Positions 1,258 to 64,000 of a stretch of 64,000 bases of DNA are shown here, in pieces. A program made the translations under genes and the position numbers. Every line of letters starts with the position of its first letter. Positions within the stretch are counted from its first letter, which is position 1. The notes beneath the pieces are model-generated. The model was not told the origin of the DNA, did not search any database, and saw nothing but the letters and a program-made list of their open reading frames with translations. The stretch lies in the NCBI RefSeq assembly GCF_003610735.1, contig NZ_RAQM01000011.1, positions 1 through 64,000 on the forward strand, given 5' to 3'. Source of the stretch: Tenacibaculum lutimaris (GTDB lineage: Bacteria; Bacteroidota; Bacteroidia; Flavobacteriales; Flavobacteriaceae).

Positions 1258-1520
1258 GTTGTAGCGAGGAGTGGCTTTGTTTCTTCGAGAAAAAGATTGC
1301 TTCGCTTTCACTCGCAATGACGATTACTATAATGTCATAGCGAGGAGTGATATCGACGTGGCTATCTCACTCTCGACAAACAGATTGCTTCGCTTTCACT
1401 CGCAATGACGATTACTATAACGTCATAGCGAGGAGTGATATCGACGTGGCTATCTCATTCAACGGAGTAGCTCCGTGTTTAAGATCTCTCACATTCCGCG
1501 CTGCTTCAGTTCGAGATGAC
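1258..1520. repeat. Cluster of three dispersed GTCATnGCGAG...CAATGAC palindromic repeats, two in tandem
   Basis: The 366-nt gap between holA and the HsdR-N gene holds no gene but three repeat copies: about 1258-1321, 1334-1409 and 1422-1520. Each begins with GTCATAGCGAGGAG or a variant and ends with CTCGCAATGAC or TCGAGATGAC, so each copy can fold on itself. Copies 2 and 3 share a block of about 49 nt (starting at 1321 and 1409, one mismatch seen) with an 88-nt period, a recent local tandem duplication. Related copies lie at 2583-2811, 40204-40232 and, in frame, inside menD at 43923-43949. An open frame at 1347-1541 is only the repeat being read. Confidence 0.85.
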
Positions 1521-2582: not shown

Positions 2583-2811
2583 ATACTCTCCTCGTGAGAT
2601 TTCTCACATTCGTTCGAAATGACAAGAACAAATATTATTTTGAAGGAGATAACGACTGAGAAATCTTAAACATAAAAATTACTCTCCTTATGGGATTCCT
2701 CCTCGTACCTCGTTCGGAATAACGGAAACGCGAAACGTCATAGCGAAGAATGATAATGACGTGGTTATCTTACTCTCTATAAAAAGATTGCTTCGTTCCT
2801 CTCGCAATGAC
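2583..2811. repeat. Second cluster of dispersed palindromic repeats
   Basis: The 296-nt gap before the glycosyltransferase contains a half-type copy ending TTCGAAATGAC (about 2583-2623), a degenerate copy (about 2690-2724) and a full copy (2737-2811, GTCATAGCGAAG to CTCGCAATGAC). They belong to the same family as those at 1258-1520. Reading through the last copy gives a spurious N-terminal extension on the glycosyltransferase gene. Confidence 0.8.
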
Positions 2812-42851: not shown

Positions 42852-44504
42852 TTATAAGTTTTTAAAATAGTTCTTTAAAACTACGTCATTTATTTCTTTT
42901 GGAGTAAATATCTCCATTATTTTTGGTTGCTCTGTTTCAACATAAAACTCATTTAACTCTTCATTCAACTCTTTTAAAGCTGCCACCTGAACATATTCAA
43001 AACCATACATTCTTGCCAAATGTTCTGCTGTTAAGTTGTGAGGCGTTTCAAAATAATCTGCCGCATTCGTCTTTAGTGGTCCAGGAATAAACCTAAAAAT
43101 ACCACCTCCTGCATTGTTTAATATTATAATTCTAAAATTCTTCGGAATATTGGTATTCCACAAAGCATTACTATCGTAAAAGAAGCTTAAATCTCCAGTA
43201 ATAAACGTTGTTGGTTTCTCATCAGTAAACGCTGCGCCTACAGCAGTACTTGTACTACCATCTATACCACTTGTTCCTCTATTACAAAACACTCTTAAGG
43301 TAGAATTCACATCGAATAATTGAGAATATCGAATCGTAGAACTGTTACTAATTTGCAACTGAGATTCATTAGGAAGTTTTTCTAAAATCGCTTCAAATAC
43401 TTTTAAATCTGAATACTCACAGTTTTGCAAATATGCTTCGTGTTTCTCAACTCTTAAACTCTTTTCTTTTAACCATTTTTGCTGATAATCACTTCCAATA
43501 CCTTCACTCTTCACTGATAACGCTGTTAAAAATTCAACAGGATTTGTTTGAACAAACTCCGACAAACAATGATAGGTATCCATCGCTTTTAACTCATCGA
43601 CATGCCAATGGTGATTTGGTGGCGACTTTCGTAAAAGTTGTTTAATTTTCTTAGAAATTACCATTCCTCCTAAAGTTACTAATACTTCAGGTTTAAATTC
43701 CTCAAACTCTTCAGAAGACAAAGGAAAAATCAACTTATCAATACTATTGATAAACTTCGGATGATATATATTAGAAGTCGTTTCAGTTAAAACTATTACA
43801 GAATCATCTTCTGCATACTTCAATAAAACCTTTTGTAATTCAACATCAGGAAAACTACTTCCTACTAAAATCATTTTTTTAGTTGAAACATTCCAAATAG
43901 AAGCTAATTTTTCTAAATCAAAAGATTGTTTTGTTTCACTCGAAATGACATTTGAAAAATTAAAAGATTGTAATTCTTCTACCGTTTCATATAAAGGCTC
44001 ATCAAACGGAACATTGACATGTACTGGTCCCTTCTTGTTAATCGCAGTTTGTATTGCTTTTGTCAACAAGTCAGAGTTATTTTTTAACTGATTCTCTTCT
44101 TCAATCAAATTCGCTGAGAACAAAATATGATTTTCAAACACATTTTCTTGACGGATCGTTTGTCCGTCTCCAATATCAATTAAATGTTTTGGTCTATCCG
44201 CAGAAATTACTATTAACGGAATTTGACTATAATATGCCTCTGCGATTGCAGGATAATAGTTTAATAAAGCTGAACCTGAAGAACATGTAATTACTACAGG
44301 TTTTTGAGTTTGTTGCGCTATTCCTAACGCAAAAAAAGCAGCACAACGCTCATCAACAACACTTAATGCGTTTGTTTTTGGATGATTTGAAAATCCGACA
44401 GTAAGTGGTGCGTTACGAGAACCTGGAGAAATAACCACAGTATCAACATCAAATTCATGACATGCAGTAATAACAAGTTGTGCGAGTTCTTTTTTTGGGT
44501 ACAT
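42852..44504 (-). CDS. menD: SEPHCHC synthase (menaquinone)
   Basis: The 550-residue ThDP-dependent enzyme joins 2-oxoglutarate and isochorismate in menaquinone synthesis. It has MYPKKELAQLVITACHE opening, the ISPGSRNAPLTVG and DERCAAFFALG (ThDP activation Glu) segments of the N-terminal PYR domain, and a C-terminal PP domain with ITGDLSFFYDSNAL (GDx motif) and NNAGGGIFRF. The start is the Met at 44504. The 14-residue extension from 44546 (MSFPRKRESH...) comes from a repeat at 44522-44541. A second repeat, read in frame, forms residues VISSETKQS at 43949-43923. menB and menF are separate; the S1 gene follows directly. Confidence 0.93.
   Translation of the reverse strand: MYPKKELAQLVITACHEFDVDTVVISPGSRNAPLTVGFSNHPKTNALSVVDERCAAFFALGIAQQTQKPVVITCSSGSALLNYYPAIAEAYYSQIPLIVISADRPKHLIDIGDGQTIRQENVFENHILFSANLIEEENQLKNNSDLLTKAIQTAINKKGPVHVNVPFDEPLYETVEELQSFNFSNVISSETKQSFDLEKLASIWNVSTKKMILVGSSFPDVELQKVLLKYAEDDSVIVLTETTSNIYHPKFINSIDKLIFPLSSEEFEEFKPEVLVTLGGMVISKKIKQLLRKSPPNHHWHVDELKAMDTYHCLSEFVQTNPVEFLTALSVKSEGIGSDYQQKWLKEKSLRVEKHEAYLQNCEYSDLKVFEAILEKLPNESQLQISNSSTIRYSQLFDVNSTLRVFCNRGTSGIDGSTSTAVGAAFTDEKPTTFITGDLSFFYDSNALWNTNIPKNFRIIILNNAGGGIFRFIPGPLKTNAADYFETPHNLTAEHLARMYGFEYVQVAALKELNEELNEFYVETEQPKIMEIFTPKEINDVVLKNYFKNL
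43923..43949 (-). repeat. Dispersed repeat half-copy read in frame in menD
   Basis: The 27 nt correspond on the minus strand to GTCATTTCGAGTGAAACAAA and the following CAATCT, nearly identical to the arm at 1382-1409, and are in frame as nine codons (VISSETKQS). They lie between the PYR domain and the middle domain of MenD, where an insertion would be tolerated. Confidence 0.7.
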
Positions 44505-44521
44505 ATCTTTTAAAAAATGAG

Positions 44522-44541
44522 ATTCCCGCTTTCGCGGGAAT
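44522..44541. repeat. dRS3-like 20-bp inverted repeat upstream of menD
   Basis: ATTCCCGCTTTCGCGGGAAT is a perfect 8-bp inverted repeat with TTTC loop, matching the ATTCCC-N8-GGGAAT (dRS3-like) class. It is flanked by AGATT- and TGAC-like ends typical of the dispersed family. It lies in the leader of menD and yields the spurious peptide FPRKRES when read. Confidence 0.8.
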
Positions 44542-44569
44542 GACAAAATACTAAAACCAACTTTGTTGA

Positions 44570-62750: not shown

Positions 62751-64000
62751 ATGGCTACAATTATAAACATGCCTCGCTTAAGCGATACAATGGAAGAAGG
62801 AGTGGTAGCTTCTTGGTTAAAAAATGTAGGAGACAAAGTTGAAGAAGGTGATATTTTAGCTGAAATCGAAACAGATAAAGCTACAATGGAATTTGAATCT
62901 TTTCACGAAGGAACATTATTACATATCGGTGTTCAAGAGGGCGAAACAGCTCCTGTTGATAGTTTATTAGCTATTATTGGTGAAGAAGGAGAAGATTTTT
63001 CTTCATTATTAAATGGAAACACTTCTGCTCCTGCTGAAACAAAATCAACAGAAGAAACTAAAACTGAAGAGCCAAAAGCATCAAACACAAGCACTGATAT
63101 TCCTGAAGGAGTAAAGGTTGTTACTATGCCTCGTTTGAGTGATACTATGACTGAAGGTACTGTGGCTTCTTGGTTGAAAAAAGTAGGTGATAAAGTTGAA
63201 GAAGGTGATATTTTAGCTGAGATTGAAACTGATAAAGCTACGATGGAGTTTGAATCTTTCAACGAAGGAACTTTATTACATATCGGAGTTCAAGAAGGTG
63301 AAAGTGCTCCTGTAGATAGTTTATTAGCTATTATTGGTGAAGCTGGAACTGATGTTTCTTCATTAGTAGAAGCACATAAAGCAGGTACCTTAACAAGCTC
63401 AACTACTACTGAGAAACAAGAAGAAGCTCCTAAAGTAACAGAAGAAAAGAAAACAGAAACTGTAACTACTCCAGTAGCAACTGTATCAAATAATAACGGA
63501 GGAAGAATTTTCGCATCTCCTTTAGCAAAAAAAATAGCAAAGGATAAAGGAATCAATTTAGCAGACGTTAAAGGTTCTGGAGAAAATGGCCGTATCGTTA
63601 AAAAGGATGTAGAAAATTATACTCCAGCTGCAAAAGTTGAAGCACCTGTAGCTACAAGTACTGCTGCTACTCCATCAGCTGTAACTAATTTTGCTATTGC
63701 TGGCGAAGAAAACACTTCTGAAGTTAAGAATTCTCAAATGCGTAAAGCTATTGCTAAGGCATTAAGCAATTCTAAATTCTCTGCTCCTCACTTCTACTTA
63801 AATATTGAAGTAGACATGGACAATGCTATGGCTTCTCGTAAAACCATTAACGAAATTCCTGATACTAAAATATCTTTCAATGATATGGTAGTAAAAGCTT
63901 GTGCAATGGCATTGAAAAAGCATCCTCAAGTAAACACTAGCTGGACGGATAATGATACATTATTCCACAGTCACATTAACGTTGGTGTTGCTGTAGCAGT
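62751..64000 (+). CDS. pdhC: Pyruvate dehydrogenase E2 component (dihydrolipoamide acetyltransferase), partial
   Basis: The gene starts at ATG 62751, 3 nt after pdhA, and is open through the end of the window (416 codons visible). It has two lipoyl domains (about residues 3-80 and 122-200, each with the lipoyl Lys in ETDKATMEFES), a peripheral-subunit-binding domain (about 250-285: FASPLAKKIAKDKG, GSGENGRIVKKDVE) and the start of the acyltransferase core (MRKAIAKALSNSKFSAPHFYL and onward). It transfers acetyl groups to CoA within the complex. The two lipoyl domains are nearly identical (72 of 80 residues). The C-terminal catalytic HxxxD lies beyond the window. Confidence 0.95.
   Translation, partial: MATIINMPRLSDTMEEGVVASWLKNVGDKVEEGDILAEIETDKATMEFESFHEGTLLHIGVQEGETAPVDSLLAIIGEEGEDFSSLLNGNTSAPAETKSTEETKTEEPKASNTSTDIPEGVKVVTMPRLSDTMTEGTVASWLKKVGDKVEEGDILAEIETDKATMEFESFNEGTLLHIGVQEGESAPVDSLLAIIGEAGTDVSSLVEAHKAGTLTSSTTTEKQEEAPKVTEEKKTETVTTPVATVSNNNGGRIFASPLAKKIAKDKGINLADVKGSGENGRIVKKDVENYTPAAKVEAPVATSTAATPSAVTNFAIAGEENTSEVKNSQMRKAIAKALSNSKFSAPHFYLNIEVDMDNAMASRKTINEIPDTKISFNDMVVKACAMALKKHPQVNTSWTDNDTLFHSHINVGVAVA

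Follow-up and report, generated by a model that had tools for sequence, protein, structure and literature searches.

A single unit of a dispersed palindromic repeat lies in frame within menD of Tenacibaculum lutimaris

How short palindromes that lack a transposase spread through bacterial genomes, and whether they supply proteins with new peptide segments, is an old question that arose from Rickettsia, whose palindromic elements (RPE; about 150 bp) are summarised in part of a 2024 review of MITEs. According to passages of Di Nocera et al. 2013 (PMC3733652), the intragenic elements RPE-6 and RPE-4 of R. conorii correspond to short CGTC repeats, CGTC-tagged REPs occur in five phyla including Bacteroidetes, and their units can be intragenic and have no associated transposase. 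The same passages give one case, recB of two Xanthomonas species, in which different REPs occupy about the same site. Passages of RepRanger 2025 list two Flavobacterium species with predicted repeats and are silent on coding insertions, and the part of the open-licence literature that was searched yielded no account of palindromic repeats within coding sequences of Flavobacteriaceae.

Here we followed up the proposal, hereafter the original prediction, that a mobile palindromic repeat has entered menD of T. lutimaris at a tolerant linker. The stretch of DNA analysed, referred to as the window, is 64,000 nucleotides long, and its features are collected in Table 1. Read in the sense of the gene, the menD unit is GTCATTTCGAGTGAAACAAAACAATCT (27 nt), and it differs from the unit at 1382–1409 on the minus strand (GTCATTGCGAGTGAAAGCGAAGCAATCT), with which the original prediction had compared it, by three substitutions and one missing base. 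The proposed near-identity to the intergenic repeat therefore stands, while the description of the menD copy as one arm of that repeat does not: the 27 nt are a whole repeat unit, i.e. a monomer, and most intergenic copies consist of two such units and are thus dimers.

Table 1. Coordinates of the features discussed, in positions of the window.
Feature	Position	Strand	Basis
Intergenic unit of the same repeat, 28 nt	1294..1321	-	sequence
Intergenic dimer of two opposite units	1334..1409	.	sequence
Intergenic dimer	2737..2811	.	sequence, pattern
menD, with stop codon	42852..44504	-	domain and structure matches, ORF
Coil between PYR and middle domains, MenD residues 176–196	43917..43979	-	predicted structure, relatives' alignments
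One repeat unit, type A monomer, in-frame VISSETKQS, MenD residues 186–194	43923..43949	-	sequence, pattern, matrix
Second palindromic repeat type, ATTCCCGC-GAAA-GCGGGAAT, just upstream of menD	44521..44544	-	sequence

A 27-nt consensus, built with the menD copy in view, matched 13 places in the T. lutimaris genome with at most three mismatches (menD included), and its reversed control matched none; the unit at 2785–2811 (minus strand) in the third intergenic element lies one position off the 27-nt search pattern. With a weight matrix built without menD copies, the menD site scored 33.4 bits, the maximum over 500 codon-shuffled versions of menD being 11.6. None of the 12 copies outside menD is covered internally by a long ORF, as the frames found there are either at most 120 aa long or the start of a 363-aa frame, and 11 of the 12 have, by eye, a partner in the opposite orientation. 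Under a stricter count, one of 15 copies in this genome is inside a long ORF. Twelve two-unit elements of 68–86 nt were listed for the genome. Elsewhere in it, a stretch of about 1.3 kb (C1:546851-548106) holds seven right-arm matches, a local array of repeat dimers. Two further observations concern the window: a third repeat-like stretch, GTCATCTCGAACTGAAGCAGCGCGG...AGATCT, lies beside the intergenic dimers at 1482–1520 (minus strand), and the segments 62769–63011 and 63126–63368 are direct copies of 243 nt, 85% alike, at a spacing of 357.

The host gene was identified as menD by its three TPP-enzyme domains (TPP_enzyme_N at residues 6–115, TPP_enzyme_M_2 from residue 201 and TPP_enzyme_C at residues 393–531) and by the solved MenD chains 2x7j and 7tin, which are the closest to its product. 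In the structure predicted for this protein from an alignment of 25 rows, residues 176–196 are without helix or strand and directly precede the first helix of the middle domain (residues 197–206). The mean pLDDT is 68 for block 181–190, with 84 and 79 in the flanking blocks, and lower values occur elsewhere in the protein (48 for block 111–120; 49 and 46 for 471–490). The nine residues VISSETKQS thus lie between the PYR and middle domains, just as the original prediction had placed them, and the 27 nt are a dispersed repeat that is open and in frame, within a predicted interdomain coil. Translation probably starts at the ATG at 44504, the listed ORF beginning at a TTG at 44546. The second repeat type, which occurs at three places in the genome with at most three mismatches, would give rise to the N-terminus MSFPRKRES, which is probably spurious; indeed, the repeat before menD (44521–44546) opens a TTG-started MSFPRKRES... 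extension that a gene caller may annotate as the MenD N-terminus.

Across the clade we distinguished two types of unit, A (GTCATTGCGAG...GCAATCT) and B (GTCATTTCGAG...GAAATCT). Covariation, counted on 164 distinct units and compared with 500 shuffles, outlined a stem of five pairs, four of them covarying: pair 7-22 was kept in 153 units (shuffle maximum 98), 5-24 in 161 (144), 6-23 in 157 (147) and 8-21 in 154 (149), with the caveat that the units were gathered with two type models, which may inflate covariation. The nearly fixed pair 4-25 (A4-T25) had no covariation excess in these 164 units (150 against a shuffled mean of 150.4), and inner pairing was weak (11-18 in 80/164 units, shuffle maximum 68; 12-17 in 14/164). 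In the menD copy, two of the five stem pairs, 7-22 and 8-21, are mismatched, and we take this copy for a relict, by now ordinary coding sequence. Single units fold no better than shuffled sequences, as many of the latter were as good (64/200 for menD, 53/200 for consensus A and 149/200 for consensus B), and since this includes the consensus monomers the fold test does not discriminate for the menD copy. Dimers do fold better than shuffles (3/200 as good for a 68-nt dimer), and so does the segment 1260–1350 of the window (0/200). At gathering scores, Rfam had no match within the window. In another genome (G028, C1:3536964-3537597), four similar units are spaced 202–203 bases apart.

We next turn to the linker in related menD genes. 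A recognisable unit (>20 bits) was present in 17 of 100 distinct genes, always in frame 0, and all 17 bearers belong to the Tenacibaculum/Polaribacter clade. The fillings are of type A or B and come as monomers or dimers. Counted from the EPLY codons, monomers begin at +39 nt whatever their type and dimers at +24, i.e. five codons earlier, with second copies at +66; in T. adriaticum (L055), an A unit is followed by a B unit. The original prediction had expected the nine residues to be absent or variable in sister species. Contrary to this, the site is by no means filled in the species of the window alone: many sisters carry units there as well, and of different types. Linkers without a unit mostly measure 28–30 aa (a few up to 34), those with one unit 29–30 aa, and those with a dimer or two units 38–39 aa. 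Given that most unit-less sister linkers are equally long, the nine residues do not simply extend the protein, and since bearers of one unit have a MenD of ordinary length, menD itself displays no insertion as such. Of the proposed entry of a mobile repeat into a tolerant linker, the dispersed repeat and the coil therefore hold, and the simple addition does not. Judging from these sequences, the single menD units would fit replacement, or an old insertion with later loss of length, equally well, and menD may have been entered once or several times. Two relatives deserve separate mention. P. marinus MenD (L056) carries an extra B-like unit, VSTSAVENS, elsewhere, 132 nt before the end of the EPLY codons. 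The closest menD found, that of Tenacibaculum sp. L6 (L098, around 2030–2070), consists of two segments 88–91% identical to the menD of the window, lacks the unit and flanking bases, is 41 nt shorter overall and is shifted in frame; this gene looks broken, or its assembly wrong, which is odd for a gene expected to be needed.

The distribution of the unit was followed on a quick menD tree of 84 rows, made with the linker removed and leaving out L006 (a duplicate), L098 (frame-shifted), L114 (cut), L081 (the same gene as L040), identical genes, and rows below 57.5% identity except L110 and L112. All 17 bearers fell into one starred clade of 65 rows, comprising Tenacibaculum, Polaribacter and unplaced assemblies, and the 19 rows outside it (Lutibacter, Flavobacterium and unplaced assemblies) had no unit. 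Conservation of the nine residues in distant Bacteroidetes, which would have spoken for an ancestral motif instead of a dispersed repeat, was thus not seen in these 19 rows. Nine changes of presence are needed on the tree, at least five of them on starred branches and with gains and losses undistinguished, and presence is clustered (shuffled mean 15.8 changes, 0/500 as low as 9); L049 and L050, whose linkers hold repeat-like residues at 3.2 and -1.6 bits, were scored as absent, which inflates this number if theirs are decayed units. Among 16 bearers (L055, with both types, excluded), the type changes between A and B four times, and a starred clade of five near relatives, next to the menD of the window, has types A, A, B, B and B. 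Three genomes (G002, G008 and G018) had neither a menD unit nor, at the thresholds used and among the matches listed, any dispersed copy, and the repeat-rich genomes G015 (at least 47 matches) and G005 (at least 31) have menD without a unit.

To place menD among other genes, we examined the surroundings of dispersed copies in 15 genomes of the clade, for part of the matches listed. This gave at least 237 distinct copies (threshold >22 bits), a set into which eight menD loci from relatives were deliberately brought. At least 86 of these copies lie inside long ORFs, defined as ORFs of at least 180 aa with the copy at least 12 aa from either end. Among the matches listed, they belong to at least 36 gene families, of which at least 19 are represented in two or more genomes. 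With one of the 36 representatives unscanned, 31 of the 35 scanned matched a known protein family: type IA topoisomerase, MobA-like transferase, MoeB/ThiF-like, FAD monooxygenase-like, lipoyl acyltransferase, IcmF, MetG, PurL, RibD, GYDIA kinase, WaaA-like, LeuS, HisA, MetH, GltX-type synthetase, AMP-binding, PP-loop, ValS-type synthetase, DNA polymerase I, MurB, PyrD, RNB exonuclease, thymidine kinase and others. The names HisA, GltX and TilS, each backed by a Pfam domain match, are presumptive, as are those of MoeB, the monooxygenase and WaaA, for which the NCBIfam score was under the cut-off. The four scanned representatives without a family match were L203, L169, L206 and L213; some ORFs, and copies near an ORF start (L152, L205 and L280), may be spurious. 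The search for in-frame copies elsewhere that the original prediction had called for was thus fruitful, with dozens of genes in relatives and, in T. lutimaris itself, a dimer remnant, VVTNEKITSSQTPRND, at the third of three repeat-filled linkers of topoisomerase. These linkers hold type A in some genomes and type B in others, and the remnant means that at least two T. lutimaris genes, this one and menD, have repeat-derived codons.

Intragenic copies favour one reading frame. Frame 0 of the element strand (VISSxVEKS/VIAxExKQS) is used by 59 of the 86 copies and in 25 of the 36 families, as against 21% expected among stop-free frames, and by 51 of 78 copies when menD, all of whose copies in the set are in frame 0, is left aside. 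Asn precedes 28 of the 59 frame-0 intragenic copies, and a T is found at -1 in 86% of frame-0 copies compared with 54% of copies outside ORFs, a bias that possibly stems from target preference or from selection.

The hisA site offers the comparison that menD does not. In 23 of 30 genomes, that of T. lutimaris included, this site is empty and short, and in the other seven it is filled by monomers or dimers of different types, whose units stand in frame 0 in G015, G011 and G033, in frame +1 in G005 and G026, and in frame +2 in G013 and G020 (the matrix missed the G005 unit and the left one in G026, both of which were identified by eye). By alignment, hisA is a clean insertion of the kind that had been proposed for menD and does not appear there. 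The different frames at one site would call for independent insertions, or else for compensating indels each time.

Recurrence at fixed places extends well beyond hisA. Among the matches listed, 126 pairs of copies from different genomes share a gene; in 90 of them the two copies are no more than 12 alignment columns apart, and 32 of these 90 same-site pairs, from nine families, differ in type, 15 of the 32 being menD. By inspection, two further families, MobA-like and HisA, differ in orientation or frame, so that in 11 of the 19 multi-genome families the same place carries another type, frame or orientation between species. For 65 copies, mean identity was 0.749 to the same site in other genomes, 0.732 to other loci of the partner genomes and 0.774 to other loci of the own genome, in a comparison whose rows are not independent and whose alignment may pull repeats together into the "same site". 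Copies at one site are therefore not significantly more alike across species than copies at unrelated sites (p 0.20), and the own-genome value exceeds that for partner loci (p 8e-6; p 0.17 against the same site). For 57 of the 65 copies the best match is in their own genome, a count biased towards the own genome, where more copies are available, so that the mean identities are the fairer measure. This pattern is unlike that expected if each gene had received one old insertion and passed it on together with its sequence. It thus looks as though the repeats go on supplying proteins with small peptides at recurring positions. More specifically, a REP-like family may repeatedly re-occupy fixed positions in many housekeeping proteins, an ongoing turnover of coding DNA in which units are inserted at targeted sites or resident ones are converted, and copies at a shared place may track the host genome no less than the gene; to these two statements together we give slightly less than even credence.

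Taking these data together, we think it highly probable that the 27 nt in menD are a decayed single unit of a non-autonomous hairpin-type (REP/RPE-like) repeat of Tenacibaculum and Polaribacter, and that tolerant linkers have been refilled with it repeatedly. A unit would be copied into DNA by some enzyme. Insertions into genes would survive where the frame is kept, no stop is introduced and the site is an exposed linker; since a protein would offer few such tolerant places, the same ones would be hit or overwritten repeatedly. After insertion, a copy would drift as ordinary coding sequence and its stem would decay, as in the menD of the window, and the added peptide, if neutral as we suppose, is probably without function. 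Mobilisation by a RAYT was considered and is unsupported, as a Y1 transposase (PF01797) matched in 15 of 30 genomes and in neither the T. lutimaris genome nor eight others with at least five copies. No target-site duplication stood out among the 86 in-ORF copies (at k=4, at most two copies; counted without a shuffled control). Other points that weigh against this reading are the equal length of menD linkers with one unit and without, the unit-less menD genes of the repeat-rich genomes, the unvarying +39 register of menD monomers, and the folding of single consensus units, which is no better than that of shuffles.

The alternative that survives best is that menD was entered once, in the ancestor of the clade, and that this insertion was inherited vertically and followed by decay (giving ISMSSLDNS in Polaribacter) and by overwriting in place, through gene conversion or template switching from other copies, instead of by new insertions. 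It would explain why both monomer types start at the same codon (+39) and why a single unit makes little difference to linker length. It also gains from the unit-less Polaribacter genes, in which the best linker position is mostly in the same register and often ranks 1–7 of about 540 codon positions, a hint in the sequence that these linkers may be decayed units; these ranks, however, come from related Polaribacter and are not independent, and some are 10, 18 or 28. Moreover, dimers begin at +24, two menD genes carry two copies, and at hisA a single insertion would need compensating indels to account for the varying frames. We regard a single ancestral insertion as possible and rather doubt it. 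That the unit has been retained for use, whether as a beneficial peptide or as a hairpin in the mRNA that adjusts menD expression, seems quite unlikely: the strong preference for one frame (59/86) and the occupation of the same genes in several species would suit such a use, but tolerance also accounts for the frame preference, most relatives have no menD unit, and stem pairs 7-22 and 8-21 are mismatched in the copy of the window. Very unlikely, in our view, is an exchange of repeat types between species by homologous recombination of menD segments; the type does depart from the menD tree in places, but differences in type at one site recur in nine gene families, and copies at shared sites are closer to the other copies of their own genome than to other loci of the partner genomes. 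Finally, chance likeness or an ancestral linker sequence, for which it could be said that the linker is variable and little constrained, is barely conceivable and was ruled out in practice by the genome-wide pattern count, the matrix score (33.4 bits against at most 11.6 in shuffles) and the menD genes of relatives, where two repeat types match the same place in sisters and the rows outside the clade have no unit.

The menD of T. lutimaris is one case among many, with the same repeat in frame in numerous housekeeping genes such as those for topoisomerase, HisA, MetG, LeuS and PurL. The clade counts many sequenced and cultivated species, so that filled and empty protein sites can be compared directly, and different reading frames at one site serve as internal controls. 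For annotators, VISSEVEKS, VIANKVKQS and MSFPRKRES in proteins of this clade are to be taken as repeat DNA and not as family motifs.

Compared with the described systems, the menD repeat works like the palindromic elements of Rickettsia and shares part of the features of the CGTC-tagged REPs. With the former, as far as the published descriptions go, it has in common dispersed palindromes of which many lie in frame inside unrelated, functional-looking genes. Like them, it forms a dispersed intergenic family (12 places in its own genome besides menD) and is represented by in-frame insertions absent from orthologues, as seen at hisA and with 86 of 237 copies in ORFs. It differs from them in the phylum and in size, with units of 27 nt and dimers of mostly about 65–85 nt as opposed to the cited 150 bp or so, and in that the same protein sites hold different types and frames across species. 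With the GTAG REPs of REP/RAYT REPtrons it shares short palindromes that occur as monomers and dimers, but its tag is C/T-GTC and Y1_Tnp is missing from the T. lutimaris genome and the eight others named above. With the CGTC REPs, as portrayed in the cited passages, it shares this tag, described there as CGTC and often TGTC or CCTC (here CGTC in 55 and TGTC in 145 of 237 copies, where the first base alone counts as a test because the search patterns required GTC), a stem opening with AT, dimers, intragenic units and the lack of a dedicated transposase. Unlike in the CGTC REPs of those passages, the stem has five pairs and weak further pairing instead of 8–9 bp with a loop of 4–5, and the tail after the stem T is CT and then variable, as opposed to mostly CCA. 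CGTC REPs are there mostly HH dimers; what was seen in the T. lutimaris genome is twelve two-unit elements and, by eye, an opposite partner for 11 of the 12 copies outside menD. The second repeat type, just upstream of menD, fits by eye the stem and loop given for the CGTC REPs. Finally, whereas the same passages give one instance, recB, of different REPs at a shared site, such same-site occupancy is found here in many gene families.
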